Shown here piece by piece: positions 39,321 through 54,749 of a DNA stretch of 64,000 bases. Position 1 is the stretch's first letter; each line of letters starts with the position of its first letter. The stretch is from Burkholderiales bacterium (lineage in GTDB: Bacteria > Pseudomonadota > Gammaproteobacteria > Burkholderiales > Ga0077523), in contig JAIEQG010000034.1 in assembly GCA_019747905.1 (NCBI GenBank), forward strand, positions 110,290 to 174,289, given 5' to 3'. The position numbers and the translations under genes were made by a program. Below the pieces are notes generated by a model, which was not told where the DNA came from, searched no databases, and saw only the letters and a program-made list of their open reading frames with translations.

Positions 39321-41132
39321 ATGTTCCGCACCGTCCTTGCTGCCGCCGCCTTCCTCGGCAGTTCCCTCGCCCAGGCCGCATCCCCCTGGGCCGGGGACCT
39401 GGCCCCGATCGCCCCGTCCGACTGGAACCGCGCCCGCGCGGCGCACCTCCTGGAGCGCGCCGGATTCAGCGGCACCCCGGAAGAAATCGATGCCCTGGCG
39501 CAGCTGACCCCGGTCGAGGCCGTGCGCCGCCTCGTCTATTTCGAGGGCGTGCCGGCCACCGAGTTGCCGCCGTTCGAACACTCGGGCGTATTCGAAGAGG
39601 GTCTCGACCAGTTCCCGCCCAGCCGCCCCGCCACCACCGATCTCGCCCGCACCAAGGGCGAGGCGCTCGGGGTCAAGGTGAAGCCGGGCGGCAACCGCCG
39701 CATGCAACCGGTGGTGAACAAGTTCTTCTACTGGCTCCGGGCGAGCAAGCTCGAGACCGATCGCGTCGCCTACTGGTGGGCCGATCGCATGCTCGTCTCG
39801 CCGCGTCCGCTGGAAGAGAAGATGGCTCTCTTCTGGCACGGACACTTCGCCACCAACGAAGAGAAGGTGCGCGACTATCGCAAGATGCTGAACCAGCTCG
39901 AGCTGTTCCAGCGCGAAGGGCTGGGCAATTTCCGCACGCTGCTGATCGGCGTCGCGCAGGACCCCGCGATGCTGTCGTTCCTCGATGCCGCCGTGAACGT
40001 GAAGGGCGCCCCGAACGAGAACTTCGCCCGCGAGATCATGGAGCTTTTCACCATGGGGGTCGGCAACTACAGCGAGCGCGACATCCGCGAGGCGGCACGC
40101 GCGTTCACGGGCTGGAACTTCGAAGGTGTGACCTTCCGGGTGGACCAGTCGAAGCACGACGACGGCACCAAGGAAGTGCTCGGGCACAGCGGCAACTACG
40201 ACGGCATCCAGGTGATCGACATCATCCTCGAGCAGCCGGCCACACCGCAGTTTCTCGCGGCGAAGCTGTACCGCTTCTTCGTGCGCGATGACCTCGATCC
40301 CGCGTTGAAGGCCGAGCTCGGCAAGCGGCTCAAGGCCGGCAACTACGAGATCGCCCCCTTCCTCGAGACATTGTTCCTGTCGCGCGATTTCTACGCGCCC
40401 GAGTCGGTGGCGACCCGCATCAAGAGCCCGGTCGAGCTGGTGGTGTCCACCTACCGCAAGCTGGGCCTGACCGCGGTGCCAGGGGTGCCGGACTTCAACG
40501 AAACCACCACGGCGCTCGGGCAGCGGTTGATGCACCCCCCGACGGTAGCCGGCTGGGCACAGGGGCGCAGCTGGATCACGCCGGGACTGCTGCTCGAACG
40601 CGGCAACTTCGCGCTCGACGTCGCGCTGCCGGACATCAACTACATCCCCGGCGATCGCTACCCTGCGTCCCAGGGCGGTTACGAGATCCGCTTCGTGCAC
40701 GAGCGGGTGCGCAGCGGCCTCGACCTGACCTCGGCGACCAAGCCCGGGGGGCCCGACGGCGGCATGGAGATGATGGCCATGTCCACCATGAGCGGCGACC
40801 GCGACGAGGATTTCAATACCCGCTTCGGGAGCTACCGCGGCTGGCAGATGGCAGTGGAGCGGGTCAAACCCATTCCCCGCACCGTCGCGCAGCTCGATCT
40901 CACGGGCATGGTGCTCGAGGCCGGCTGCGACACTCCGGAAGAGGTGGTCGCCTACATGGAGGGCCGCTTCCTGTCCGTGCCGCTGGATGCGACCACGCGC
41001 CGCAACCTCGCCACGTTCCTCGAGAAGGAGCTGGGAACGCGCGACATGAAAGCCACTTCGACCTATGCCGAAGATTCCCTGCGCCTGCTGTTGCACCTGC
41101 TGCTGAGCCGGCCGGAGTATCAACTCGGGTGA
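39321..41132 (+). CDS. DUF1800 family exported protein
   Basis: A 603-residue secreted protein. The signal peptide MFRTVLAAAAFLGSSLAQA is followed by the DUF1800 pattern: RAAHLLERAGFSGTPEEIDAL, WWADRMLVSPRPLEEKMALFWHGHFATN, NENFAREIMELFTMGVGNYS, EAARAFTGW, AKLYRFFV, and GWAQGRSWITPG near the end. RBS AGGAAAG precedes ATG 39321. DUF1800 genes are almost always paired with a DUF1501 gene, as here (34 bp apart). The biochemical role of the pair is not established. Confidence 0.93.
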   Translation: MFRTVLAAAAFLGSSLAQAASPWAGDLAPIAPSDWNRARAAHLLERAGFSGTPEEIDALAQLTPVEAVRRLVYFEGVPATELPPFEHSGVFEEGLDQFPPSRPATTDLARTKGEALGVKVKPGGNRRMQPVVNKFFYWLRASKLETDRVAYWWADRMLVSPRPLEEKMALFWHGHFATNEEKVRDYRKMLNQLELFQREGLGNFRTLLIGVAQDPAMLSFLDAAVNVKGAPNENFAREIMELFTMGVGNYSERDIREAARAFTGWNFEGVTFRVDQSKHDDGTKEVLGHSGNYDGIQVIDIILEQPATPQFLAAKLYRFFVRDDLDPALKAELGKRLKAGNYEIAPFLETLFLSRDFYAPESVATRIKSPVELVVSTYRKLGLTAVPGVPDFNETTTALGQRLMHPPTVAGWAQGRSWITPGLLLERGNFALDVALPDINYIPGDRYPASQGGYEIRFVHERVRSGLDLTSATKPGGPDGGMEMMAMSTMSGDRDEDFNTRFGSYRGWQMAVERVKPIPRTVAQLDLTGMVLEAGCDTPEEVVAYMEGRFLSVPLDATTRRNLATFLEKELGTRDMKATSTYAEDSLRLLLHLLLSRPEYQLG

Positions 41133-41166
41133 TCAGAGCCATCGCGACCAGCAGCAGGAGCCAACC

Positions 41167-42363
41167 ATGACGACAGACAAGAATCGCCGCCGCATCCTCC
41201 AGGCTTCCGCCGGACTCATGATGCCCGGCATCTTCGGCACCATCGCCCGCGCCGCAGCCGCAGCTGAGCAGGAAGACCGCATCCTGGTGGTCTTCGAACT
41301 CTCCGGCGGCAACGACGGCCTCAACACCGTCGTCCCATACGCCGACGATCGCTATTACAAGCTGCGGCCCAATATCGGCATCCGCCCGAACAAGGTGCGC
41401 AAGCTCGACGACCGCTTCGGTCTCAACCCGGGCATGGCCGGCTTCGAACGCCTGTGGAAGGACGGCCAGCTCGCCATCGTGCACGGCTGCGGCTACGACA
41501 ATCCGTCGTTCTCGCACTTCACGTCCATGGCCTACTGGCACACTGCCGCGCCGAACAGCGGCGACGATTTCGGCTGGGTCGGCCGGCTCGCGGACACCAT
41601 GTCGCCCAAGCCCGTGCCGAACTACCTGCTCAACATCGACGCGACCCAGTCGCTCGCGGTGCGCAGCCGGGTCCACACGCCCGTGGTCTTCGACGACCCC
41701 GACCGTTTCATGCGCAACGCCTTCTTCCAGGAGCGCCCCCTGCTCGACGACGTTGAGGTCGAGGCCGAAGACAATCCTTCGCGCCGCTTCCTGGAACAGG
41801 TTGCCGTGAGCGCCCGCGAGTCTTCCTTCGCCGTGCGCGACGCCTGGTCGAAGTACAAGACGACGGTGGACTACGGCATCATCCCGCTCGGTCTCACCAA
41901 GGTGGCCGCGTGCATCTCGGCTGGATTGCCCACACGCCTCTACTACGTCGGCTACCGCAACAATGCCTTCGACACCCACGTCCAGCAGTCGGATCTGCAC
42001 CAGCGCCTGCTCACCTACACCTCCGACGCGATCCACGGGTTCCTGCGCGACATGGAGCGCATCGGCCAGGCCGACCGCGTGAGCATGCTGATCTTCTCCG
42101 AGTTCGGCCGCCGCGTACCGGAGAACACCAGCCTCGGCACCGACCACGGCACCGCCAACGTGATGTTCTTCGCCGGCAAGCCGGTCAAGGGCGGACACTA
42201 CGGTACACCCTCCGACCTGGGCGGCCTCGACGCCGGCGACAATCTGATCCACACGGCGGACTTCCGCCGCGTCTACGGCACCGCGATCGACGGCTGGCTG
42301 CGCCTCGGCGCCGCCGACAAGGTCCTGAAAGGGCGATTCGAGGCCTTCCCCGTCTTCGCGTGA
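41167..42363 (+). CDS. DUF1501 family protein, Tat-exported
   Basis: A 398-residue protein with a twin-arginine leader (NRRRILQASAGLMMPG) and the DUF1501 pattern: VFELSGGNDGLNTVVPY, GYDNPSFSHFTSMAYWHTA, YYVGYRNNAFDTHVQQSDLHQRLL, IFSEFGRRVPENTSLGTDHGTANV and GGHYGTPSDLGGLDAGDNL. The fold is alkaline-phosphatase/sulfatase-like, and the Asp/His residues in TDHG and NDG sit where that superfamily binds metal. It is exported folded through Tat. It forms a two-gene unit with DUF1800, with AGGAG before its ATG. Confidence 0.93.
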   Translation: MTTDKNRRRILQASAGLMMPGIFGTIARAAAAAEQEDRILVVFELSGGNDGLNTVVPYADDRYYKLRPNIGIRPNKVRKLDDRFGLNPGMAGFERLWKDGQLAIVHGCGYDNPSFSHFTSMAYWHTAAPNSGDDFGWVGRLADTMSPKPVPNYLLNIDATQSLAVRSRVHTPVVFDDPDRFMRNAFFQERPLLDDVEVEAEDNPSRRFLEQVAVSARESSFAVRDAWSKYKTTVDYGIIPLGLTKVAACISAGLPTRLYYVGYRNNAFDTHVQQSDLHQRLLTYTSDAIHGFLRDMERIGQADRVSMLIFSEFGRRVPENTSLGTDHGTANVMFFAGKPVKGGHYGTPSDLGGLDAGDNLIHTADFRRVYGTAIDGWLRLGAADKVLKGRFEAFPVFA

Positions 42364-42387
42364 CCGGGTTGGTGTAAGGTACGGGCG

Positions 42388-43317
42388 ATGAACGCATTCG
42401 CCCGTTTCCTCGGGGCGACATTGTTGTGCGCCCTGCCCGCGTTGCCCGCCGCCGCTCTCGAAGGCGGCGCGGTCGATTCCAACGCCGATCCCACGTTCGC
42501 CGGTGTCGGCAGCCTTTCCCGATCCACCGGCGGCACGTTCTCCGGCGTGCTCATCGGGTCGCGCCACGTGCTGACCGCCCAGCACGTGGTGGGCGCGAGC
42601 GCGTCGCCGTCCCAGTGGACCTTCAACCTCAACCTCGACGGCCTCGCCTCGGGCGAGCGGACCTTCGCGGTGACACGGATCATTGCGGCACCCGGCTTCG
42701 TCGGCTTCGTCAACGGCGAAGTGGCACGCAACGACCTCACCGTGCTCGAACTCGATCACGAGGTGCCGGCGGGGGTTCCGATCTACGGGCTCAGCGATTC
42801 CCCCTTGCAGTTGGGCCAGGAGATCACCCTCGTGGGCTACGGCGGGACCGGCGCGGCAATGAAGCGGCGCGGGACCAACATCGTGGAGTTTCTCGATCCC
42901 ACGCCCGGCCCCGGGGCAAGCCCCGACGTATTCGCCTACGACTACGACACCGACTCGGCCAACCAGGCGACGGTGGTGGGTGGCGATTCGGGCAGCCCGG
43001 TATTCGTGAATGAAGGTGGCACATGGAAACTCGCCGCCATCAGCACCTTCTCGTGGACCAATCCCGACATCCCCGGCAGCGGGCCGCTGCGGGGTGGCGG
43101 CGGCATGATCGTCTCCGCCTATGCGCCGTGGATTCAACAGGCCACCGTGGTGCCGGAGCCCGCCACGCATGCACTGTTCGCGATCGGCATGCTGATGCTC
43201 GTCGCATGTGTCCGTGCGCTGAAACTGCGCCGTTTCCCCTCGGCCGCACGGCAACCGGCTCGGGAAATTTTCCGGCGGGCACAAAATCGGATGACCGAAA
43301 GACCGCGGGCAAGGTAA
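42388..43317 (+). CDS. trypsin-like serine protease with PEP-CTERM sorting signal
   Basis: A 309-residue secreted protease. Signal peptide MNAFARFLGATLLCALPALPAAA. The chymotrypsin-fold triad is visible: His in LTAQHVVG (about 66), Asp in RNDLTVLEL (about 116) and Ser in GGDSGSPVF (about 200). Near the C terminus VPEPATHALFAIGMLMLVAC plus basic residues (ALKLRR) is a PEP-CTERM signal, recognised by exosortase for sorting linked to exopolysaccharide. Oddly the ORF continues about 27 residues past the basic cluster, whereas such proteins normally stop there. No exosortase gene is in the window. Confidence 0.88.
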   Translation: MNAFARFLGATLLCALPALPAAALEGGAVDSNADPTFAGVGSLSRSTGGTFSGVLIGSRHVLTAQHVVGASASPSQWTFNLNLDGLASGERTFAVTRIIAAPGFVGFVNGEVARNDLTVLELDHEVPAGVPIYGLSDSPLQLGQEITLVGYGGTGAAMKRRGTNIVEFLDPTPGPGASPDVFAYDYDTDSANQATVVGGDSGSPVFVNEGGTWKLAAISTFSWTNPDIPGSGPLRGGGGMIVSAYAPWIQQATVVPEPATHALFAIGMLMLVACVRALKLRRFPSAARQPAREIFRRAQNRMTERPRAR

Positions 43318-43375: not shown

Positions 43376-44530
43376 ATGAGGTTCCATGACAGGGCCATCG
43401 GTGCCGGCTGCCTCGGCGCAGCACTCGCCATCGTTGGCGGCATCTCTTGCCAGACGGCGTCCGCCCAGTTGCCGATCGAGCAGCTGACCAACAAGCCGGC
43501 GATCACCGCCAAGAACCGGGTCTACATCCCGGACATCGCGATCATGCACATCGCCGACGGCAAGGTGCACGTCATCGACGGCGACACCGGCAACTACGAG
43601 GGCGTGATCGGCTCGGGCTTCACCGGCCAGTCGAAGCTGTCCAAGGACGGCAAGGACCTCTTCATCGCCACGACCTACTACGATCGCGGGCAGCGCGGCA
43701 ATCGCTCCGACATCGTCGAGGTGTGGGACGCCGAGACCCTTCACTTCAAGTACGAGATCGCCATCAGCGACAAGCGCGCGATGGCGCTCAACTACAAGTG
43801 GCTGCTGAGCCTGTCGTCGAACGGCCGCTGGCTCATCGTGCAGAACGCCACGCCGGCCACCTCCGTGACGGTGGTCGACCTCGAGAAGAAGGCGGCCGTG
43901 GCGGAGATCGCCATGCCGGGCTGCTGGGCCATCTACCCCGTGCCGTCCCAGCCCAACAAGTTCGGTTCGCTCTGCGGCGACGGCACCGCGCAGATCGTCA
44001 CGCTGGCCGACGATGGCTCGGCGGCCGGTCGCACCGTGTCGGACACGCTGTTCGACCCCGAGAACGACGCCCTCTTCATCCAGGGCGAGGCCACGGGCGA
44101 CACTTATCATTTCGTCAGCTTCACCGGCAACCTGGTGTCCATCGATTTCGGCGGCGACAAGGCCAAGGCCGCCGGCAAGACGTCGCTGGTCACCGGCGAA
44201 GAGCGCAAGAAGGGCTGGCGGCCGGGCGGCTACCAGCCGGTCGCCCTGGGTGGCGGCAAGCTCTACGTCGCCATGCACCCCGGCGGCGGCGAAGGCAGCC
44301 ACAAGACGCCTGCCAAGGAGATCTGGGTGTACGACGTGGCGTCCAAGAAGCGCGTGGGCAAGATGCCGGGGCACGGCGCCACCGCGATCGGCACCTCCTC
44401 GGACGGCACCCGGCTCTACGCCATCGATGCCGAGAAGGCGTCGCTCGTCATCACCGACGTGGCCAAGAAACCCAAGGTGAAGGCCACCGTGCAGGTGGGC
44501 GAGTTCCCGAGCCAGATCGAAGTGAATTAA
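43376..44530 (+). CDS. mauB: TTQ amine dehydrogenase, heavy (beta-propeller) subunit
   Basis: A 384-residue periplasmic subunit of a tryptophan-tryptophylquinone amine dehydrogenase (methylamine or aromatic amine type). Signal peptide ends TASAQ. The mature part is a seven-bladed propeller with repeats such as RVYIPDIAIMHIADGKVHVIDG, SKDGKDLFIATTYYDRGQRG, DIVEVWDAETL and the C-terminal GTSSDGTRLYAIDAEKASLVI. It is first in the order B-E-D-A, shared by mau and aau clusters. AGGGGAGG precedes ATG 43376. The order and the following cytochrome gene favour the aromatic amine dehydrogenase type (inference). Confidence 0.92.
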   Translation: MRFHDRAIGAGCLGAALAIVGGISCQTASAQLPIEQLTNKPAITAKNRVYIPDIAIMHIADGKVHVIDGDTGNYEGVIGSGFTGQSKLSKDGKDLFIATTYYDRGQRGNRSDIVEVWDAETLHFKYEIAISDKRAMALNYKWLLSLSSNGRWLIVQNATPATSVTVVDLEKKAAVAEIAMPGCWAIYPVPSQPNKFGSLCGDGTAQIVTLADDGSAAGRTVSDTLFDPENDALFIQGEATGDTYHFVSFTGNLVSIDFGGDKAKAAGKTSLVTGEERKKGWRPGGYQPVALGGGKLYVAMHPGGGEGSHKTPAKEIWVYDVASKKRVGKMPGHGATAIGTSSDGTRLYAIDAEKASLVITDVAKKPKVKATVQVGEFPSQIEVN

Positions 44531-44543
44531 GCACGCAGACCCG

Positions 44544-45119
44544 ATGGACGTGTTGTCGATCATCGCCGACCCGGCCGCCAAAGGCGCCGTCATCGGCGCC
44601 CTGGCGCTGATCCTCCTGGGAGCGGCCTGGCACAAGCTGTCCGAGCCGAACATGTTCCTGTCGGCACTGGCCGCCTATCGCCTGTTGCCCCAGGGCCTGC
44701 TCGATGTCGCCGCCCGCGGCATTCCCCTGCTCGAGATCGCCCTGGGTGCCGGACTGCTCGTGCCTGCCACCCGGAGCCTCGCCTTGGTAGGCGTGGCGTT
44801 GCTGATGCTCGGCTATGCGCTGGCCATCGGCATCAATCTGGCGCGCGGCCGCAGCTACATCGATTGCGGTTGCGGCGGTGCTGCACATCCGTTGTCCTGG
44901 GGTCTTGTCGTGCGCAATGGCGTGCTGGCCGCGGCAGCCCTCGCTGCCAGCGGCGCCACCATGGATCGACCGCTCGACTGGCTCGACGCCGTGACGGTCG
45001 TGCTCGGTGTGCTCGCCTTCTTCGTGACCTACCTCATGGCCGACGAACTGCTGCGCCAGGCAAGCCGCATGGCGCGCGCGGAACGCTCGACCGATACCGC
45101 AAGAAGCCTCTCCTCATGA
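44544..45119 (+). CDS. mauE: MauE family membrane protein for amine dehydrogenase maturation
   Basis: A 191-residue inner-membrane protein with about four to five helices and a DCGCGG motif (GRSYIDCGCGGAAHPLSWGL), the MauE signature. MauE and MauD are needed for export or disulfide formation of the small subunit, which holds many disulfides. Its stop overlaps the mauD ATG as ATGA. Confidence 0.92.
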   Translation: MDVLSIIADPAAKGAVIGALALILLGAAWHKLSEPNMFLSALAAYRLLPQGLLDVAARGIPLLEIALGAGLLVPATRSLALVGVALLMLGYALAIGINLARGRSYIDCGCGGAAHPLSWGLVVRNGVLAAAALAASGATMDRPLDWLDAVTVVLGVLAFFVTYLMADELLRQASRMARAERSTDTARSLSS

Positions 45120-45730
45120 CCAGCATCACCATCTCCAACGCCCTGCTCTGGGTGCTCATGCTCGGCGTGATCGTCGCGCTGTGGGCGCTGGCGCGGCAGG
45201 TCGGCATCCTCTATGAGCGCGTGGCCCCCATGGGCGCCCTCATAACCGATGCCGGTCCGAAGCTCGGCGAAGCCTCGCCGCAGTTCGATCTGCCGTCCTT
45301 GAGCGGCGCCACCATCGCCATCGGCGGCGAGCGGCCCAAGAGCCAGCTGATCTTCTTCCTGTCGCCCACGTGTCCGGTCTGCAAGAAGCTGCTGCCGATC
45401 CTGCGCTCCGCTTCCCAGGCCGAGAAGAACTGGCTCGACGTGGTCATCGCGAGCGACGGCGATTCGACCCAGCACCTCGGTTTCTACCGCGACGCTAAAC
45501 TCGAACAGTTTCCCTACGTGCTGTCGGCCGACCTCGGCATGACCTACCGCGTGAGCCGCCTGCCCTATGCCGTGCTGCTGGACGAGCATGGCGTCATCCG
45601 CGCCAAGGGACTCATCAACAATCGCGAACAGCTCGAAAGCCTGTTCAATGCGAAGGAAATCGGCGTCGCATCGGTGCAGGACTACCTGCAGCGCGGCGCC
45701 CAAGCTCACCAACCCCACGAATCCGCCTGA
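45116..45730 (+). CDS. mauD: MauD thioredoxin-like protein for amine dehydrogenase maturation
   Basis: A 204-residue membrane-anchored thioredoxin-fold protein: N-terminal helix LLWVLMLGVIVALWALARQV, then GEASPQFDLPSL and the redox motif SPTCPVCKKLLP (Cys about 86 and 89), and cis-Pro in RLPYAVLLDEHGVI. It is placed to form or isomerise the disulfides of MauA in the periplasm. The ATG at 45116 overlaps mauE; the track lists a longer frame start (44864) that is not real. Confidence 0.92.
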   Translation: MTSITISNALLWVLMLGVIVALWALARQVGILYERVAPMGALITDAGPKLGEASPQFDLPSLSGATIAIGGERPKSQLIFFLSPTCPVCKKLLPILRSASQAEKNWLDVVIASDGDSTQHLGFYRDAKLEQFPYVLSADLGMTYRVSRLPYAVLLDEHGVIRAKGLINNREQLESLFNAKEIGVASVQDYLQRGAQAHQPHESA

Positions 45731-45753
45731 ACCTGATCGAAGGAGACTTGAGA

Positions 45754-46275
45754 ATGTTCCAGATCATCGAGCAATGGATCGACCGCATGGCCGAACGCCG
45801 CGTGCGTGCCACCGCGCAATCCACCTCGCGCCGCAGTGCGGTGGCGAAGATCGGCACGCTGATGGTCGGCGGCGCCGTGCTGCCGATGCTGCCCTTCGAT
45901 CGCTCCGGCGGCGAAGCCCATGCCGCGCTGCCAGCACCCCAGGACCCGACCAAGTGCGAATACTGGCGCAACTGCGCGCTGGACGGCTTCCTCTGCACCT
46001 GCTGCGGCGGCTCCATCACTTCCTGCCCGCCCGGCGCCGAGGCCTCCAAGGTCACCTGGGTCGGTACCTGCAAGAACCCGAAGGACGGCCGCGACTACCT
46101 GGTGAGCTACAACGACTGCTGCGGCAAGGTCGCCTGCGGTCGCTGCCTCTGCAACTACAACCAGGGCGAGCGTCCGGCGTACCGCATGGGCATCCACAAC
46201 GACATCAACTGGTGCATGGCCGACAAGCAGACCATGTATCACTGCACGGTGTCGGTCATCGTGGGAGTGAATTAG
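45754..46275 (+). CDS. mauA: TTQ amine dehydrogenase, light (catalytic) subunit
   Basis: A 173-residue precursor of the catalytic subunit carrying the TTQ cofactor. A long twin-arginine leader (STSRRSAVAKIGTLMVGGAV) is followed by a Cys-dense domain: CEYWRNCALDGFLCTCCGG, TWVGTC, DCCGKVACGRCLC and HNDINWCMAD. The two tryptophans that become TTQ correspond to those in TWVGTC (about 100 of the precursor) and NDINWC (about 153), and both are kept. AGGAG at 45741 favours ATG 45754 over the TTG used by the track. No mauG-like di-haem gene is nearby. Confidence 0.94.
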   Translation: MFQIIEQWIDRMAERRVRATAQSTSRRSAVAKIGTLMVGGAVLPMLPFDRSGGEAHAALPAPQDPTKCEYWRNCALDGFLCTCCGGSITSCPPGAEASKVTWVGTCKNPKDGRDYLVSYNDCCGKVACGRCLCNYNQGERPAYRMGIHNDINWCMADKQTMYHCTVSVIVGVN

Positions 46276-46342
46276 GCGATTGAGGTGTACGCATCGGTCG
46301 CTACGCGCCCGATGCACGTGCACTTCAATCGGATCTGATCAG

Positions 46343-46378
46343 CAGATCAGGCTAGGGAGCGGCCCGGCGCCTGATCTG
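46343..46378. promoter_or_regulatory. inverted repeat between mauA and the cytochrome c gene
   Basis: CAGATCAGGC (46343-46352) and GCCTGATCTG (46369-46378) are perfect 10-bp arms with a 16-base loop in the 123-bp gap. There is no T-run, so it could be an operator, a processing stem or a partial terminator setting the ratio of the cytochrome to the dehydrogenase. Confidence 0.45.
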
Positions 46379-46398
46379 AGGGCAAAGGTTACGGGGCG

Positions 46399-46854
46399 AT
46401 GAGATTGGGAATTCTGCGATCGGTGGTGGCTTTTGCAGCGTTGATGCTCGCGCTCGCCACTGCCGCCTTCGCCGCCGACAAGTCGGAGACCCGCGCCAGG
46501 ATTGACTACCTGCTGCATTGCTCCGGCTGTCACGGGCAGGACGGCACCGGCAAACCGTCCGCGGGGATTCCGCGGTTCACCGATCAGGTGGGGTACTTCC
46601 TGAAACTGCCGGAGGGGCGCGCGTTCCTGATGCAGGTGCCGGGGCTGTTGAGCGCCAACATGCCGGACGATCGCGCTGCGGCGGTGGTCACGTGGATGAT
46701 CAAGGAATTCGCGGGGCCCTCGATGCCGGAGAATCTGGAGCCCTATACGGTCGCGGAAGCGAAGCGCTACAAGGCCGAGCGTCCGGCGGACATCATGGGT
46801 CGGCGCAACGAGATCTACGCGAAGCTGCTCGCGCTGGGCATCAAGATCGAGTAG
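46399..46854 (+). CDS. periplasmic monohaem c-type cytochrome, probable amine dehydrogenase electron partner
   Basis: A 151-residue exported protein. Signal MRLGILRSVVAFAALMLALATAAFA is followed by a single haem-binding motif CSGCH (about residue 41) in LLHCSGCHGQDGTGKPSAGIP. A methionine in LSANMPDDRAA could be the sixth ligand. In aromatic amine dehydrogenase clusters a small monohaem cytochrome gene follows the structural genes, which fits here. It converges with dsdA and overlaps its 3' end by 14 bases. Confidence 0.85.
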   Translation: MRLGILRSVVAFAALMLALATAAFAADKSETRARIDYLLHCSGCHGQDGTGKPSAGIPRFTDQVGYFLKLPEGRAFLMQVPGLLSANMPDDRAAAVVTWMIKEFAGPSMPENLEPYTVAEAKRYKAERPADIMGRRNEIYAKLLALGIKIE

Positions 46855-48121
46855 CGCTGGCCGGCGAGTCGTTCAGCAGCTGCTGGAACACGTCATCGGG
46901 GAGCAAACCGCCGCCCGTTGTCCACACGATGTCCGTGCCCTTTCCAGCGTTCAGACCAGCACGCGACCACGATACCGCCGCAGCAAACGCCGATGCTGCG
47001 GACGGTTCCAACTCGAGTCCCGCATCGAACCACGCTCGCCGCACCCATTCGAGACTGGTTGCATCACTCACTGTGACGACACCGTCGATCAGGTGCCGGA
47101 CCACGTCAGCCGCGAACAAAGACGCCGATGCGACGGCCAGTCCGTCCTGCACGGTCTGGTTGCTGCGCCCGACGTCGTAGACCGAAACGGATTCGCGGGA
47201 TTCCGATGCGAGCTGCACCACCATGCAAGGCGATTCGACCGGCTCCACGAAGACGCAGCGCACCGCATCGCCGAACACGTGCTTCAGACCGAACGTGATG
47301 CCGCCTGGAGCACCGCCGACGCCGCACGGCAGGTAGACCAGCAGCGGCCGACCGGCATCCACCGCAATCCCGGCCGCCTCCAGTTGAACCCGCAGATCGA
47401 TCGCTGCCGTCGCGTAGCCAAGGAAAAGCTGCTCCGAAGTTTCGTCGTCCACGAAGTGACACTGCGGACGCGTCGCTGCGGAGGAGCGCGCCGCGGCCAC
47501 CGCGGCGGTGTAGTCCGCCTCGTGCTCGACCACGTTCACGCCGATGCGACGCAGCCGGTCCTTCTTCCACGCTTTCGCGTCGCTCGACATGTGCACCTCT
47601 GCCGCAAAGCCGAGCGCGCGGGCCATCACGCCGACGCTGAAACCGAGGTTGCCGGTACTGCCGACGACGACGGTGTGGCGCGCGAAACGCTCCCGCCAGG
47701 CCGGGTCGGCGAACGCGGCGAAATCGTCTGGCACGCCGAAACCTTCCGCAACGCGTTCCGCGTACCACAGCACTTCGTAGACGCCGCCGCGCGCCTTGAT
47801 GCATCCAGTCACAGGCAGATCGTGATCCGCCTTCACCAGCAGACGGCCCTGCCCGCCCAGCACCGAGCGGGCGAAGCTCTCCTTCGGTTCCAGCAACGCC
47901 GAGTCGATCAGCCCACCCGACGAGCGCAGTTCCGGAAACAACTTCGAGAGCAACGGAGCGAAGCGCCGCCAGCGCGCTTGTGCCGCCTGCACGTCGGACC
48001 ATTGCAGAGGCAGCGTGGGCAGCACTTCCGCTGCGGGGCGAACGTGCGGATTGCGCCACACCGTCGGCACCCCCGCACGGACGGCATCCGGCACTCCCAG
48101 AGCCGGCTTCGGATCGTTCAT
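46841..48121 (-). CDS. dsdA: D-serine ammonia-lyase (D-serine dehydratase)
   Basis: A 426-residue PLP enzyme converting D-serine to pyruvate and ammonia. The PLP lysine lies in PVTGCIKARGGVYEVL (about 108), close to the E. coli DsdA sequence around Lys118. VGSTGNLGFSVG is the phosphate loop, and YLPCGVGGAPGGITFGLK and VWTTGGG match the fold-type II DsdA family. ATG 48121 overlaps the stop of the oxidoreductase gene as ATGA; the track's 48460 start is spurious. It is the last gene of the long minus-strand run. Confidence 0.9.
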   Translation of the reverse strand: MNDPKPALGVPDAVRAGVPTVWRNPHVRPAAEVLPTLPLQWSDVQAAQARWRRFAPLLSKLFPELRSSGGLIDSALLEPKESFARSVLGGQGRLLVKADHDLPVTGCIKARGGVYEVLWYAERVAEGFGVPDDFAAFADPAWRERFARHTVVVGSTGNLGFSVGVMARALGFAAEVHMSSDAKAWKKDRLRRIGVNVVEHEADYTAAVAAARSSAATRPQCHFVDDETSEQLFLGYATAAIDLRVQLEAAGIAVDAGRPLLVYLPCGVGGAPGGITFGLKHVFGDAVRCVFVEPVESPCMVVQLASESRESVSVYDVGRSNQTVQDGLAVASASLFAADVVRHLIDGVVTVSDATSLEWVRRAWFDAGLELEPSAASAFAAAVSWSRAGLNAGKGTDIVWTTGGGLLPDDVFQQLLNDSPASATRS

Positions 48122-49434
48122 CGCCAGCGGTCCTCGATGCCATAGGCCAGATACGCACCGGCGAGGTAGGCCTTGCGCAGAGCCGGCAGCGGGAAGCGCG
48201 GGATCTCCGTGGACGTGACCGGCGTGTCGCGCGGCACCGTCTTGCCCATCACGAGATCCGCTGCGAGGCCGCCGCAGTGACTCGATAGCGCGACGCCACT
48301 GCCCAGATAGGCCATCGCGTATGCGACTGTCGCATCGCCTTCGACGGTGTTCATGTGCGGAATGAGGTCGTAGGACAAGCCCACGTTGCCATGCCAGAAC
48401 CACTCGCTGCCTACGCCCGCGAGCACCGGCCATTTGGCGGCGATGGCCGCCTCCAGCCATCTGCGGCGTCGAGCCAGAGCCGAAGGCGTGTCGAATACGC
48501 CTGAGCGTCCACCAAACAGCAGCCGGTCATCGGGCAGGCGCCGCCAGTAGAACAGCAGGCGGCGGGTGTCGGAGTACACCTGAGTGGTAGCCATGCCGAC
48601 GGCATCCCATTCGGCCGGGGTCAGGCGGCGCGTCACCACGATGTTGCTGGCCGCCGGCAACACCCGCCCGCGAAAGTACGGATGCAGGTGCTCCGGCGTG
48701 TAGCCGTTCGTGGCCATCACGACCCTGCGGGCGTGCACCGTGCCGCCCGGCGTTGCCAGGACATGGGTGCTGCCGTCGCGCTGCCAAGAGACGACGGGCG
48801 TTCGATCGAACAGGGCGGCACCGCGACGCGCAGTGGCCTTCGCGAGACCTCTTGCGTACTTGAGCGGATGCAGCCCGAAGCCGGTGCGGAACCGGATCGC
48901 ACCTCCCGCGGACGGCCCGCGCAGGTAGCCATCGCGCTCGAGCTGCTCGCGACTCAGGAGATCCACGCCGTCGAAACCGAGCACCTCGCGGTACGTGCGG
49001 ATGCGATCCTTCAGTTCGGCCACTCGTTCGTCGCGATGGGCCACCGTGAGCGCGCCTTCGGGTTGCGCATCGCAATCGATCGCCTCGCTGCGGATCAGTT
49101 CGCGCACCGTTTCGACCGCATCGACCCCAAGTCTTACCGAAGCTCGCGCCGCTTCCAGGCCCCATTTGCGGATGCGTTCGTCCAGGCCGACCTTGCCCAC
49201 CGACGTCAGCGCGAACCCGCTGTTGCGTCCGCTGGCGCCCCAACCGATGCGATTCGCTTCGAGCACCGCCACGTCGACACCATGCACAAATGCAAGCTGG
49301 CGTGCGGCCGTAAGACCGGTGTAGCCGCCACCGATCACCGCGACCTCCACCTGGCGGTCGGCTTCCAACGGACGCGCGCCGGATTCGTCGGGCGCAGCCG
49401 TGTCCTCCCAGTACGAAGGAACGACAGCGGTCAT
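48118..49434 (-). CDS. FAD-dependent amine/amino-acid oxidoreductase (DadA/PuuB-like DAO family)
   Basis: A 438-residue flavoenzyme of the DAO superfamily. It has the Rossmann motif VAVIGGGYTGLTAARQLA (about 31-48), then VLEANRIGWGASGRNSGF, which is typical of PuuB/gamma-glutamylputrescine oxidase-like proteins, and a C-terminal AYLGSGVALSSHCGGLAADLV that binds FAD. The N-terminal SYWEDTA also fits PuuB-like enzymes. Neighbouring Pot-type ABC genes and dsdA suggest oxidation of an imported amine, polyamine derivative or D-amino acid. The exact substrate is unknown. Confidence 0.9.
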   Translation of the reverse strand: MTAVVPSYWEDTAAPDESGARPLEADRQVEVAVIGGGYTGLTAARQLAFVHGVDVAVLEANRIGWGASGRNSGFALTSVGKVGLDERIRKWGLEAARASVRLGVDAVETVRELIRSEAIDCDAQPEGALTVAHRDERVAELKDRIRTYREVLGFDGVDLLSREQLERDGYLRGPSAGGAIRFRTGFGLHPLKYARGLAKATARRGAALFDRTPVVSWQRDGSTHVLATPGGTVHARRVVMATNGYTPEHLHPYFRGRVLPAASNIVVTRRLTPAEWDAVGMATTQVYSDTRRLLFYWRRLPDDRLLFGGRSGVFDTPSALARRRRWLEAAIAAKWPVLAGVGSEWFWHGNVGLSYDLIPHMNTVEGDATVAYAMAYLGSGVALSSHCGGLAADLVMGKTVPRDTPVTSTEIPRFPLPALRKAYLAGAYLAYGIEDRWR

Positions 49435-49441
49435 CGCGACG

Positions 49442-50521
49442 TCACTGGATCAGCCACGCGTTGAACCGCTGCACCAGCGCCGTGTCGTTCTTGCCCCACC
49501 ACTCGTTGTCGGTCTTGATGAGACCCTTCACGTAGTCCGGATGCGTGGTGAGCGACTTCGCCGCATTCGGGTCCACCAGGTCGAACGCCTTGCGGTTGGT
49601 CGGGCCGTAGGCCACGTACCTGGTCTGGTTGGCCTGCTGCTGCGCCTGGGTGGCGAAGGCGATGAACTTCATCGCGTTCTCGCGATGGGGCGCACCCTTG
49701 GGCACGGCCCACCAGTCGCCCGACAGCAATCCCTGATTGCGTTCCACACCGATCGGCGCACCCTTGGCGATGGCACTCACCACCTCGCCATCCCAGATGG
49801 CCGCCAGGTCCACTTCGCCGTTGGACAGCACCTGCGTGAATTGAGCGCCGGAAGTCCACCACGCGGTGACGTGCTTCTTGATGCGGTCCATGCTCTTGAA
49901 CGCCCTTTCCACGTCGAGCGGATAGAGCTTCTCCGGCGGCACCCCATCGGCGAGCAGCGCGATCTCGAGGTTGCCGAAGGGCGTCTTGCGCAGCGAGCGC
50001 GGACCGGGAAAGCGCTTCACGTCCCAGAACTCGGCCCAGTTGCGCGGATGGTTCTGCACCGAGTAGCGGCGGGTGTGGTAGCCGATTGCCGTGGCGAACA
50101 TGTCGCAACCGGTGCCGCGCGGATGCACGGCCGCAGGCATCAGGTCGGTCGTCGGGACGATCTTGTAGTCGATGGGCTCCAGCAGGTTCTCGCGAGTGCC
50201 GACGATCACGTGCCGGTCGCCCACGTTCACCACGTCCCATTCGACGTTGCCCGCCTCCACCATCGCCTTGATGCGCGACAGCGGATCCTCGAAGGTGGTC
50301 TCGATCACCTTGATCCCGGTGGCCTTCATGAACGGTTCGAAGTGCGCCTTGCGATGTGCTTCCTGGTACGGCCCGCCCCACCCCGCCACCACCAGTTCGT
50401 TCGCGGCGCCTCGTGCGCGCGCCGGCACGACCAGCCCGAGGCCCAGGGCAGCGGTGCCCTGCAGGAACGACCGTCGACCCGATCCTCGCCCTGCGCCTGC
50501 CTCACCTTGCTCGTGATCCAT
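49442..50521 (-). CDS. ABC transporter substrate-binding protein, Pot (spermidine/putrescine)-like
   Basis: A 359-residue periplasmic binding protein. A twin-arginine-like leader (SGRRSFLQGTAALGLGLVVP) precedes the mature domain LVVAGWGGPYQEAHRKAHFEPFMKATGIKV, which places it in the PotD/AfuA-like class of extracellular binding proteins. IWDGEVVSAIAKGAPIGVERNQG lies in the ligand cleft region. ATG 50521 follows GGAGGA; the track's 50584 start overlaps the permease gap. It lies between the permease genes and the oxidoreductase. Confidence 0.9.
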   Translation of the reverse strand: MDHEQGEAGAGRGSGRRSFLQGTAALGLGLVVPARARGAANELVVAGWGGPYQEAHRKAHFEPFMKATGIKVIETTFEDPLSRIKAMVEAGNVEWDVVNVGDRHVIVGTRENLLEPIDYKIVPTTDLMPAAVHPRGTGCDMFATAIGYHTRRYSVQNHPRNWAEFWDVKRFPGPRSLRKTPFGNLEIALLADGVPPEKLYPLDVERAFKSMDRIKKHVTAWWTSGAQFTQVLSNGEVDLAAIWDGEVVSAIAKGAPIGVERNQGLLSGDWWAVPKGAPHRENAMKFIAFATQAQQQANQTRYVAYGPTNRKAFDLVDPNAAKSLTTHPDYVKGLIKTDNEWWGKNDTALVQRFNAWLIQ

Positions 50522-50567
50522 CCTCGCTCCTCCCGGTCCTACGGCATCCATCGCGTCCACCATGCGC

Positions 50568-51398
50568 TCATCCCGCCTGCGCACCGGTCAATCGTGCCGA
50601 CCGGCGCCGCAACAGTTCCAGCACCAGCAGCAGTGCCAGCGACACGGCCACCAGCAGCGTCGAGACCGCCGCGATGGTCGGATCGATCTCGGAGCGCAAC
50701 CCTTCCCACATGCGTTTCGGTAGCGTACCCGAGCGCGTGCCGCTGATGAACAGGGCGATGACCACGTCATCCCACGACGCGATGAACGCGAGCAACGCCC
50801 CGGCAGCCACACCCGGGCGGATCAGCGGCAAAGTCACGTGCCGGAAAGCGCGCCACGGCGTGGCCCCGAGGCTCGCGGCGGCATGCTCGAGCCGTTCGTC
50901 CACCCGTTGCAGCGTCGCCGACACGGTCACGATCACGTACGGCAGTCCGAGCGCTGCATGGGCGATCACCAGACCGGCCAGGCTGCCCACGAGCTTCAGC
51001 TTTGCATAGACACCATACAGCGCGATGGCGAGCACGATCACCGGCACGATCATGGGCGACACCAGGAATCCCACCACCAGCGCCTTGCCGGGAAATCGGC
51101 TGCGAGCGAGCGCCAGTGCCGCCGCGGTGCCCAGAATGCAGGCGAGCAGCGTCGCCAGCACGCCCGCCTGCAAGCTGGTCCAGAGCGCGCTCGTCCACTC
51201 GACCGAGTCGAGGAAACGCTCGTACCACTGCAGCGAGAACCCGCGCGGCGGAAACTCGAGGTACTGCGAGCTGCTGAACGAGATGGGTATGACCACCAGC
51301 ACCGGCACGATCAGGAATATCACGACCAGCGCAGCGAGCCCGTGGAGCACGACGCTCGCCGTGCGTCCCGGCGAATCCCAGGCGCGATCGAGGCTCAA
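50568..51398 (-). CDS. ABC transporter permease, PotC-like
   Basis: A 276-residue inner-membrane permease with six helices and the EAA loop EHAAASLGATPWRAFRHVTLPLIRPG near residue 185. The start is a TTG at 51398 overlapping the previous stop (TTGA), with GGGAGGGAC upstream; the track merges this gene with an unrelated upstream frame (50568..52526). It pairs with the PotB-like permease. Confidence 0.9.
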   Translation of the reverse strand: MSLDRAWDSPGRTASVVLHGLAALVVIFLIVPVLVVIPISFSSSQYLEFPPRGFSLQWYERFLDSVEWTSALWTSLQAGVLATLLACILGTAAALALARSRFPGKALVVGFLVSPMIVPVIVLAIALYGVYAKLKLVGSLAGLVIAHAALGLPYVIVTVSATLQRVDERLEHAAASLGATPWRAFRHVTLPLIRPGVAAGALLAFIASWDDVVIALFISGTRSGTLPKRMWEGLRSEIDPTIAAVSTLLVAVSLALLLVLELLRRRSARLTGAQAG

Positions 51399-52264
51399 TC
51401 CAGTCCCTCCCAGATCCGGCCCAGTCCCAGGAACCTTCCGGCCAAAGCGAGAACGGCCAGGGTCGCCACCAGCAGGGTGACGGCGAGCGCGGATGCGAAG
51501 CCCCAGGCGAGCAACTCGGACACCTGTTGCGATATGAGCATGGACAGCGTCAGGTCCGCCGGGCCACCGAGCAATGCCGGAGTCACGTAGAACCCGAGCG
51601 CGAGGATGAACACCAGCATCGCGCCGGCCATCACCCCCGGCAGCGTGAGCGGCACGAACACGCGCAGGAATGCGCGCAGCGGTGACGCACCCAGGCTGCG
51701 CGCCGCCATGGTGAGCGCCGGATCCAGCCGCGTCATCACGCTCCACACGGGCAGGATCAGGAACGGCAGCAGGATGTGGATCATCCCGAGATGGGTGGCG
51801 AGGCTGGTGTGCAGCAGCTTGAGCGGTTCCTCGGTGATGCCCAGCGCCATCAGCACCTGGTTCACGATGCCGTATCGACCGAGGATCACCATCCACGCGT
51901 AGGTGCGCACCAGCAGGCTGGTCCAGAACGGCAGCAGTACCAGCGCCACCAGCAGCGATCGCCAGGCACCGCGGCTGCGTGCGAGCGCATATGCCACGGG
52001 GTAACCCAGCACGACGGTAGCCAGCGTCACGGTGAGCGCCAGACCGAATGTCGAAGCCAGCACGCGCAGATAGACCGAGGCGGTGCCGATGGTGACGTAG
52101 TGATCGAAGCCCGGCGCGGGATCGGTCACGCTGCGGATCGCGATCAGCGTGAGCGGTAGTGCGAATGCCAGCGCGAGGAAGATGAGCGCGGGAAGAAGCA
52201 GGAGCAGGCGGCGGCGGTGCTCGGGTGCGATCGTCAGCGGCACGCCTCGTGCGGTTGCCAGCAT
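51395..52264 (-). CDS. ABC transporter permease, PotB-like
   Basis: A 289-residue permease with six helices and EAA loop AARSLGASPLRAFLRVFVPLTLPG near residue 190. The order ATPase, permease, permease, binding protein is that of pot-type operons. The ATG at 52264 abuts the stop of the ATPase gene. Confidence 0.92.
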   Translation of the reverse strand: MLATARGVPLTIAPEHRRRLLLLLPALIFLALAFALPLTLIAIRSVTDPAPGFDHYVTIGTASVYLRVLASTFGLALTVTLATVVLGYPVAYALARSRGAWRSLLVALVLLPFWTSLLVRTYAWMVILGRYGIVNQVLMALGITEEPLKLLHTSLATHLGMIHILLPFLILPVWSVMTRLDPALTMAARSLGASPLRAFLRVFVPLTLPGVMAGAMLVFILALGFYVTPALLGGPADLTLSMLISQQVSELLAWGFASALAVTLLVATLAVLALAGRFLGLGRIWEGLD

Positions 52265-53425
52265 CTAGCCCCCTCCCCGGCCCTCCCCCGCCTTCGTCGG
52301 GGGAGGGAGCCCACTGGCGATGCTCGCGGCCGTCGCCGGGTAGACCATCACGGCGTCCGCGGACCAGCCAATCCGGACAGCGTCCCCCATGCGGGGGCCA
52401 CCGCCACCTACCGCACTGCGTGCCTTGGCGATCAGCATCTCGCCAGTCGGTGTACGCAACAGGTAGCGCACAGCGTCCCCGAGATACACCGCCTCGTCGA
52501 TCACCGCATCGACCATGTTGTCGCACGACTCGCCCGGCTGAAGGAAGTCGACGCGCTCGGGACGGATCGAGAGCCGTACTTCGCCGTCACCCGGCGGTGC
52601 GACAGCGGCGGCGACCATCTCGAGGCCGCGTGCCGTGCGTACGACGACCCGGTCCGCACCGCCGTGCAGCACGCTCGCGGCGAGTGCATTCGACTCGCCC
52701 AGGAACTGCGCCACGAACGGCGTCAGCGGCCGCTCGTAGAGTTCCTCGGGGGTACCGAGCTGCTCGACGCGGCCGTGATTCATGACGGCGATCCGGTCGG
52801 ACAAGGTGAGCGCCTCTTCCTGATCGTGGGTGACGCAGATCACCGTCAGGTCCAGGGAGCGCTGCAGCCGTTTCAACTCGCCTTGCATGGTTTCCCGCAG
52901 GCGGCGGTCGAGCGCTCCGAGCGGCTCGTCCATGAGCAACAGCGAAGGCTCGAACACCAGTGCACGTGCCAGCGCCACACGCTGCTGCTGTCCGCCCGAG
53001 AGCTGGTGCGGATAGCGCCCGCCCATGTCACCCAGGCGCACCAGGTCGAGGGCCCATGCCACCCGTTCCGCGATGCGCGCCGCGGGCTGCTTGCGCATCT
53101 GCAGGGGGAAAGCCACGTTGCCGAACACCTTTAGGTGCGGAAACAACGCGTAGTGCTGGAACACGATGCCGATGTCGCGCTCGTGCGGCGGCTTGCGCGT
53201 GATCGGCTTGCCGCCGACGTAGACCTCGCCACGGGTCGGCGCGACGAAGCCGGCGATCATCAGCAACGTCGTGGTCTTGCCCGAACCGGACGGACCGAGC
53301 AAGGTCAGGAACTCGCCGGCGCCCACTTCGAGCGACAGGTCGTCCACCGCCACCGAGCTGCCGAAATCCTTGCGCAGTCCAGCGAGCCGGACCGGCGCAC
53401 CGCGGCTGCCCGATGCCGGCGCCAT
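52265..53425 (-). CDS. ABC transporter ATP-binding protein, PotA-like
   Basis: A 386-residue ATPase that powers the Pot-like importer. Walker A GPSGSGKTT, Q-loop FQHYALFPH, signature LSGGQQQRVALARAL, Walker B LLLMDEP and H-loop VTHDQEEAL are all intact, followed by a C-terminal TOBE domain. The last residues PPPTKAGEGRGGG are translated from a hairpin repeat (see 52281-52307), so the end of the gene has been rewritten by the repeat. ATG 53425 is preferred over the track's 53518. Confidence 0.93.
   Translation of the reverse strand: MAPASGSRGAPVRLAGLRKDFGSSVAVDDLSLEVGAGEFLTLLGPSGSGKTTTLLMIAGFVAPTRGEVYVGGKPITRKPPHERDIGIVFQHYALFPHLKVFGNVAFPLQMRKQPAARIAERVAWALDLVRLGDMGGRYPHQLSGGQQQRVALARALVFEPSLLLMDEPLGALDRRLRETMQGELKRLQRSLDLTVICVTHDQEEALTLSDRIAVMNHGRVEQLGTPEELYERPLTPFVAQFLGESNALAASVLHGGADRVVVRTARGLEMVAAAVAPPGDGEVRLSIRPERVDFLQPGESCDNMVDAVIDEAVYLGDAVRYLLRTPTGEMLIAKARSAVGGGGPRMGDAVRIGWSADAVMVYPATAASIASGLPPPTKAGEGRGGG
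52281..52307. repeat. GC hairpin repeat inside the 3' end of the PotA-like gene
   Basis: CCCTCCCCCG (52281-52290) and CGGGGGAGGG (52298-52307) form a perfect 10-bp stem with a 7-base loop, flanked by more C-rich sequence. It belongs to the same family as the elements near 57600 and 63820 and encodes the last residues of the ATPase. Confidence 0.8.
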
Positions 53426-53456
53426 GCCTACACCCGACGCCGGCCGTATCCGCCGG

Positions 53457-54749
53457 TCACGGCTGCAAGGCGGCCGCGGCGTTGAACTGGTCCCACATGG
53501 CAGCATAGGCCGGTGCACCCGCCACGGACCAGGGCCGGTTCGTGAGGCGCTGCAACCAGCGGTCGGCAGCCTCGTCGGCCAGGCGCCAGCACTCGTTCAC
53601 GAACGCCTGCTTTTCCTTCGTGCTGCCCTTCATCACGTGGAGCCCTTCGGCGAAGAAACGATCCTCCAGGGCATCGAAGTCCTTGCGCAGCTCGGGCATC
53701 ACCGCTCGGTAGTCGGCCATCACGCGACGGTGCAGGGTCTCGTATTTCCACCAGTATGCACCGGGCGTGAAGGTCTCGCGCGGCATCGGGCCGAGATCGG
53801 GCAGGTCGACCCCGCAGAACACCGGCTTCATGATCGAGGCATCCGGGCCCGAGGTGGCATTGGCCCACCCCATGACATTTCCGTCCTTAGCCACGCTGAT
53901 CAGTCCGCCGGTGGCCTGCCAGAAGCGGAACTCGTAGGGCGCCGCATGCATGCAGATGCGCGTGGGCCGCTCGCCGTCGTAGGGATGGTAGTCGGGGTCA
54001 TCGCCGGTGTAGCGCAACAGGTCGGCCATGGTACGCACCGTGATGCGGCCCTTCTGCTTCGCGAGGAAGTCGTAGGATGCCTTCTGCCGTTCGTCCGGCG
54101 CCGTGCAGTAGCTCTTGGTCTCGTCGGTGAAGCGCTTGCGGAAGTCCGCCTTCGGTCCCGGCTCGCCTTCGAGGGACGAGCGATACCAGTCGTCGCGGAT
54201 GCTGTGCACGTTGGAAATGCTGGCGAAGTCCGTGACGCGCTTGGCCGCCCACTGTTTGCCCGCGGTCTGGATCTCCACCGCACCGGTCATGTCGGAGACG
54301 ATGAAGCCGCCGTCGAAGTGGCTGTTGCCGCGCAGCTCGCAGTTGCCGCCCTGACCGAATTCAGCGAGCAGTCCGGCGATCACGTCCACCGCTTCATCGC
54401 AGTTGCGGGCCCGCTCGAGCATCAGCCGCAGGTGGTCGATCAGCGTGACCCCATCGCCCTCCGACGTCTGGTTCGTGAACACCGCCTCGTTGCCGCAGGC
54501 GAGCCCCCATTCGTTGAAGCCGATCTCGGCACCGTAGGTCCAGAACGATTTGTTGAGCACCACGTCCCACGTGGTTTCCGGCTGCGGGATCACGCGATGG
54601 CTGACCCGCACCAGCGCGCCCTTGCCCCACTCCCGGCGCGGGAAGCGGATGAGGTGCTGCGCCTCGTTGATCTCGGTGTCGGCGTTCTTCGCGAGCAGCA
54701 CGGAACCGTCGGCAGTGCTGTTGGCGAGAGCCACGAAGGTGTCGCACAT
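53457..54749 (-). CDS. C69 family dipeptidase (Ntn hydrolase, secernin-like)
   Basis: A 430-residue peptidase of family C69. The mature enzyme starts at Cys2 in MCDTFVALANSTADGSVLLAKNADTE, an N-terminal nucleophile pattern with Cys first. YGAEIGFNEWGLACGNEAVF and GGFIVSDMTGAVEIQTA fit secernin-like dipeptidases. With no signal peptide it should cleave imported peptides in the cytoplasm. It lies between a peptide importer and a Pot-type importer, which supports that role. ATG 54749 follows GGAGA; the longer track start is not needed. Confidence 0.9.
   Translation of the reverse strand: MCDTFVALANSTADGSVLLAKNADTEINEAQHLIRFPRREWGKGALVRVSHRVIPQPETTWDVVLNKSFWTYGAEIGFNEWGLACGNEAVFTNQTSEGDGVTLIDHLRLMLERARNCDEAVDVIAGLLAEFGQGGNCELRGNSHFDGGFIVSDMTGAVEIQTAGKQWAAKRVTDFASISNVHSIRDDWYRSSLEGEPGPKADFRKRFTDETKSYCTAPDERQKASYDFLAKQKGRITVRTMADLLRYTGDDPDYHPYDGERPTRICMHAAPYEFRFWQATGGLISVAKDGNVMGWANATSGPDASIMKPVFCGVDLPDLGPMPRETFTPGAYWWKYETLHRRVMADYRAVMPELRKDFDALEDRFFAEGLHVMKGSTKEKQAFVNECWRLADEAADRWLQRLTNRPWSVAGAPAYAAMWDQFNAAAALQP

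Follow-up and report, generated by a model that had tools for sequence, protein, structure and literature searches.

A monohaem cytochrome as a candidate for tryptophan tryptophylquinone completion or electron carriage in aromatic amine dehydrogenase operons

The aromatic amine dehydrogenase (AADH) gene cluster of Alcaligenes faecalis reportedly runs orf-1, aauBEDA, orf-2, orf-3, orf-4 and hemE, and is said to contain no analogues of mauFGLMN, with orf-2 encoding a small monohaem cytochrome. The genes aauBEDA together with orf-2 are further reported to have yielded, in Paracoccus, AADH with functional tryptophan tryptophylquinone (TTQ). An AADH cluster devoid of mauG and mauF, which is the central observation for the locus described here, is already known for the family. 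How TTQ may be formed in AADH without MauG is taken up here for a five-gene operon on the plus strand (43376-46854) of a 64,000-nucleotide stretch of contig JAIEQG010000034.1 from Burkholderiales bacterium (GCA_019747905.1), hereafter the window. The operon comprises aauB, aauE, aauD, aauA and the gene of a monohaem c-type cytochrome. This cytochrome belongs to a family, termed B-type below, which is the best candidate for the completion of TTQ or for electron carriage in AADH operons.

Judged by sequence, the operon is almost certainly an ordinary AADH operon, and oxidation of aromatic amines with TTQ is the predicted activity of its enzyme. The A. faecalis aau cluster is the best structural match for both subunits: AauB and AauA match A. 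faecalis AADH with the E values given in Table 1, as against about 4e-39 and 1e-44 or weaker, respectively, for methylamine dehydrogenase (MADH). The window sequences have nevertheless clearly diverged from those of A. faecalis, the neighbouring genes differ and the genome lacks a cupredoxin (azurin). An Alcaligenes-like locus (G192) has the same layout as the window operon, including a single B-type cytochrome. The mau clusters of Paracoccus denitrificans and Methylobacterium share a homologous B-E-D-A core and the TTQ residues with the window operon; unlike it, they carry their own mauF, mauG and amicyanin genes and no B-type cytochrome. An earlier, sequence-only reading of the window had described an AADH-like B-E-D-A layout followed by a monohaem cytochrome, with both TTQ tryptophans kept. 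This description is borne out, since all five genes are found, W102 and W153 are present in the AauA precursor and both subunits are closer to AADH than to MADH.

MauG and MauF in the genome and across related loci

No canonical mau system was found in the genome containing the window (4.9 Mb, 164 contigs, 91.5% complete). As the sequence-only reading had stated, no mauG, mauF or cupredoxin gene lies near the operon. A mauG/mauF set serving the enzyme from elsewhere was looked for genome-wide: MauF has no match in the whole genome (G393, taken as positive control, is matched at 50% identity), nor has the cupredoxin family PF00127, and no protein of the genome reaches the cut-off of the MauG model (443.85 bits), the best two scoring 199.6 and 134.5 bits. 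The suggested search for MauG-type di-haem proteins does return two members of the CCP_MauG family, both on contigs other than that of the window, but neither attains the MauG cut-off. In such di-haem proteins, a tyrosine ligand is MauG-type and a methionine ligand peroxidase-type (PMC6405878). The C160 protein has the peroxidase-type methionine and was rejected as a real MauG. The C148 protein (L001 1375-2424) carries the MauG-type tyrosine at the six-coordinate-haem position; it is unlinked to either of the two TTQ operons of the genome and is not required elsewhere, and was rejected on these grounds. Orthologues of it occur in some members of the genus. Three genus members (L111, L112 and L113) also contain an island with a MauG-like di-haem protein (294-298 bits) and MsrP-like and MsrQ-like proteins; at least two of the islands also encode a cupredoxin, and two encode a cytochrome c. 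These MauG-like proteins were likewise rejected as MauG, as they lie in an island of MsrPQ/cupredoxin type, and they were not found in the genome of the window or in G115.

Since an incomplete genome cannot prove absence, other genomes were examined. Scanning some 85,000 species genomes yielded 80 loci with relatives of aauA, taken with flanks of up to 10 kb on each side. The TTQ residues are kept in all 80, and the large-subunit and helper genes were located in nearly all of them; where one was missing, the usual cause was a truncated contig or a MauE without a match. A MauG-like gene beside the aauA relative was found in none of the 80 loci; only L059 contains genes for two-haem proteins of the size of MauG, and these lie 8-10 kb upstream of aauA. 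Five AADH genomes with intact TTQ residues and a B-type cytochrome (G192, G413, G423, G426 and G427) encode no protein with a CCP_MauG domain, and MauF was not found in them either; G192, whose light chain is very like that of A. faecalis, is 99% complete. The absence is therefore not special to this organism. Because the genome of the window has neither protein and five AADH genomes lack any CCP_MauG domain, completion of TTQ without MauG and MauF is very probably a general property of AADH.

A cytochrome family linked to TTQ dehydrogenases

Clustering of the gene neighbourhoods shows that the only genes besides aauBEDA present in all testable loci are those of monohaem cytochromes directly downstream of aauA. 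They fall into two families, A-type and B-type, and the cytochrome of the window is B-type. Among the 75 loci with enough downstream sequence to be tested, 49 have both types, 21 only B, 4 only A and one the arrangement AAB; B-type is found in 71/75 and one or the other in 75/75. The "unrecognised or distant maturase" invoked by the sequence-only reading is narrowed by this to one or two recurring monohaem cytochromes. Its description of the cluster as lacking visible TTQ-maturation genes holds for MauG and MauF and is otherwise too strong, because the disulfide helpers AauE and AauD are present, as is, in the fifth gene, a plausible maturation gene.

The distribution of B-type follows that of TTQ closely. 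Among the 399 genomes surveyed within the order, 17 have strong B-type matches (over 120 bits); all 17 have a TTQ light chain, with equal numbers of B-type and light-chain copies in every case (two each in six genomes). The TTQ-less genomes of this set give two weak matches (50-57 bits) and none higher. Three genomes have TTQ and no B-type: G393, with a true, adjacent MauG (538 bits) and MauF, and G081 and G397, with A-type-like cytochromes only. The 398 genomes surveyed across the phylum yielded fourteen further B-type genes, with the C79 copy of the window's genome counted again. For 13 of these a TTQ light chain lies upstream, within about 1.1 kb; the fourteenth belongs to a genome that has another such pair. 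Plasmid-borne AADH-like clusters of Pseudomonas, Paracoccus, Haematobacter, Cupriavidus, Burkholderia, Novosphingobium and Chimaeribacter all include B-type. It is absent from four MauG-bearing mau clusters; mau clusters in which it is missing include those of P. denitrificans, Methylobacterium and Indioceanicola. B-type is also kept alongside whichever other carrier is present, be it an A-type cytochrome, a multicopper oxidase or a c553. In these surveys the family is near-exclusive to TTQ dehydrogenases, a linkage newly found here.

The closest solved fold and sequence to both types is the Thermus thermophilus c552 family. A-type proteins match c552 over their full length and have an invariant axial methionine (55/55). 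The confident model of the B-type fold (predicted local distance difference test score, pLDDT, 95.9) is c552-like; this fold and the CXXCH motif fit a class I c-type cytochrome of the c552 kind, whereas B-type lacks both loop 50-66 and the conserved axial methionine. A methionine stands at the usual place in 24/72 B-type proteins, 39/72 have none in the loop and the rest have it elsewhere; a rule that B-type never has the methionine was accordingly rejected. The B-type haem may be open or weakly ligated. MauG differs in having two haems and a CCP_MauG domain, as opposed to one haem, one CXXCH and no match to PF03150 in B-type, and the two share only a proposed role, as c-haem proteins of the periplasm associated with a TTQ dehydrogenase.

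Di-haem genes occur at some distance from several AADH clusters. Adjacent pairs of CCP_MauG-family genes lie 8-12 kb from the clusters at L109 (15878-18051), L110 (5870-8635) and L059, each pair preceded by a monohaem cytochrome weakly resembling B-type, and most of these clusters are without B-type. In three clusters of a B-less group (G397, G399 and G402), tandem di-haem genes are found about 9-12 kb downstream. Such pairs possibly substitute for B-type, or their position is due to chance; they were kept as a suggestive lead only, as similar pairs exist in several B-type genomes and one is placed about 9 kb upstream at L059.

The genome of the window contains a second TTQ operon (contig C79, L087 7669-13093, minus strand), again without mauG and mauF. 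Its large subunit is MADH-like (7e-60 to MADH, 1e-48 to AADH), and it further encodes MauE, MauD, a light chain, a B-type cytochrome, a multicopper oxidase and a c553-like cytochrome. Genes for a light chain, a B-type cytochrome and a multicopper oxidase follow one another in G028 and G073 as well, and the oxidase could act as a sink for electrons or as an oxidant in maturation. L115 and L116 are further examples of this MADH-like operon. An AADH operon on a Chimaeribacter arupi plasmid (L138 9527-11974), with A- and B-type cytochromes, has a multicopper oxidase directly after it, so the association with the oxidase recurs outside the genus. Both TTQ operons occur in five of the eight genus members sampled, and neither occurs in the other three.

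A midpoint-rooted IQ-TREE phylogeny of the concatenated large and small subunits (45 rows, 544 columns) unites the four MauG-bearing clusters in one clade (100/100); the sister of this clade (100/99) is the second, MADH-like operon of the genus, which has B-type and no MauG. On this tree the state of MauG changes once and that of B-type three times, with the direction of change not proven by a midpoint root. A plasmid of Thermomicrobium roseum (L136) holds two very divergent genes resembling TTQ light chains (3717-4169 and about 9001-9309). They keep both tryptophans and a DCC motif and are followed by a MauE-like gene, with no B-type detected, and are a possible outgroup for rooting the TTQ enzymes.

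The window operon and its neighbourhood

The features of the operon are collected in Table 1. The B-E-D-A order with MauE and MauD homologues is common to related loci. Pfam names three of the window genes (Me-amine-dh_H, MauE and Me-amine-dh_L) and the NCBIfam model for MauD is matched above its cut-off; no single Pfam family matches the cytochrome. The start of aauA is an ATG, with an in-frame TTG at 45748, and the AauA leader contains a twin-arginine-like SRRSA. AauA keeps W102, W153 and D121 as well as each of the 14 cysteines aligned to A. faecalis AADH.

Table 1. Features of the AADH operon in the window
Feature	Position	Strand	Evidence
aauB, AADH large (beta-propeller) subunit, 384 aa	43376..44530	+	2h3x E 1.6e-85; PF06433 E 1.8e-48
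aauE, MauE-like membrane protein	44544..45119	+	PF07291 E 5.7e-28
aauD, MauD-like thioredoxin-fold protein, CPVC; 4-base overlap with aauE	45116..45730	+	TIGR02661 213 bits, above cut-off
aauA, AADH small TTQ-bearing subunit	45754..46275	+	AADH small subunit E 3e-51; PF02975 E 1.8e-54; translation
TTQ tryptophan 1 codon (W102 of precursor, motif TWVGTC)	46057..46059	+	alignment to AADH
Aspartate codon (D121, YNDCCG motif)	46114..46116	+	alignment to AADH
TTQ tryptophan 2 codon (W153 of precursor, motif NDINWC)	46210..46212	+	alignment to AADH
B-type periplasmic monohaem c-type cytochrome, 151 aa including leader	46399..46854	+	180 bits to family profile A1; one CXXCH
Haem-binding CSGCH motif (residues 41-45) of B-type cytochrome	46519..46533	+	invariant in 51-sequence alignment

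On the minus strand, genes for a PALP enzyme, a DAO-type flavin adenine dinucleotide (FAD) oxidoreductase and an ATP-binding cassette (ABC) transporter (solute-binding protein and permeases) converge on the operon (46841-53506). The AADH of a P. aeruginosa plasmid (L127) likewise adjoins an ABC transporter, and this proximity hints at linked amine uptake. Upstream of aauB (39321-43317), tandem proteins of 603 and 398 aa resemble, as judged by eye, a DUF1800/DUF1501 pair; the same region encodes a trypsin-like protein with a C-terminus resembling a PEP-CTERM signal.

Possible routes to a completed TTQ

Formation of TTQ requires a six-electron oxidation of two tryptophans, carried out in MADH by MauG (PMC6405878). 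In the AADH operon, AauB and AauA would make up a periplasmic TTQ enzyme, with AauE and AauD keeping the many disulfides of the small subunit in order. The B-type cytochrome would then provide an oxidising haem by which the Trp-Trp crosslink and the quinone are completed on the exported, folded precursor, as the counterpart of the MauG step in MADH, and it may also accept electrons from the working enzyme. If the AADH operon encodes a dedicated oxidant, only the cytochromes qualify. Of the two types B is the better fit, since it is retained beside any carrier, is specific to TTQ and does not conserve the ligand that an electron shuttle would be expected to have. We put the probability that B-type completes TTQ in place of MauG at roughly 45%.

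Several observations weigh against this maturation role. At least four AADH clusters (L048, L056, L069 and L071) have a cytochrome and no B-type, as has the deep-branching G397 operon. The methionine at its usual place in a third of the B-type proteins fits plain electron transfer, and in a genome without cupredoxin a cytochrome must take the electrons. In the mau clusters examined, the gain of MauG mostly coincides with that of amicyanin (annotated in two of them, with a cupredoxin beside MauG in G393), so the same pattern is expected if B-type is the electron acceptor. Since MauG arises only once on the tree, its anti-correlation with B-type is one event without statistical weight, and an independent-pairs test of the two gave one informative pair only. 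No B-type residue resembling the acid catalyst of MauG was pinned down in a comparison made without fold coordinates.

Nearly as likely as the maturation role is that B-type serves solely as a dedicated electron acceptor, passing electrons from TTQ to a terminal oxidase, while TTQ is formed by another route. The constant adjacency of B-type to a TTQ gene, its c552-like fold and its absence from the amicyanin-using mau clusters agree with such a function, as do the missing cupredoxin and the minority of proteins with the usual methionine. It accounts less readily for the canonical His/Met A-type cytochrome encoded between aauA and the B-type gene in most loci, for the retention of B-type beside a multicopper oxidase or a c553, for the lack of any methionine in the ligand loop of over half of the proteins, and for the mau cluster of Indioceanicola, which has no annotated amicyanin and yet no B-type. 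Two further routes appear improbable. The C148 protein might complete TTQ for both operons in trans, being the best match of the genome to the MauG model (199.6 bits) with its tyrosine in place, and at least one di-haem protein of the tyrosine type is encoded in every TTQ-positive genome of the genus. Its gene nonetheless lies unlinked among housekeeping genes, its sequence is nearer to peroxidases than to MauG with a score under half the MauG cut-off, a TTQ-less relative carries a 47% identical protein, G073 has both TTQ operons and no C148 type among its matches, and AADH occurs in genomes without any such protein. Alternatively, TTQ in AADH could process itself through general periplasmic oxidants once AauE and AauD have set the disulfides. 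The AADH loci without B-type and the several genomes without MauG-family proteins would suit this absence of a dedicated oxidase; against it, the equivalent six-electron oxidation in MADH depends on a dedicated enzyme (PMC6405878), and some other reason would have to be given for the strict retention of a haem protein specific to TTQ.

For the family as a whole, the syntenic candidates are reduced to one or two small cytochromes, one of which occurs almost solely with TTQ dehydrogenases and is not found in MauG-bearing clusters. It may tentatively be proposed that B-type was the original TTQ-completing protein of the superfamily and that MauG and MauF replaced it later, once, in the MADH lineage; TTQ would then originally have been made by a one-haem protein, mostly without the usual methionine ligand. 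Were B-type confirmed as the maturase, a single haem would suffice for the chemistry of TTQ formation, and MauG would have come late, as a substitute.

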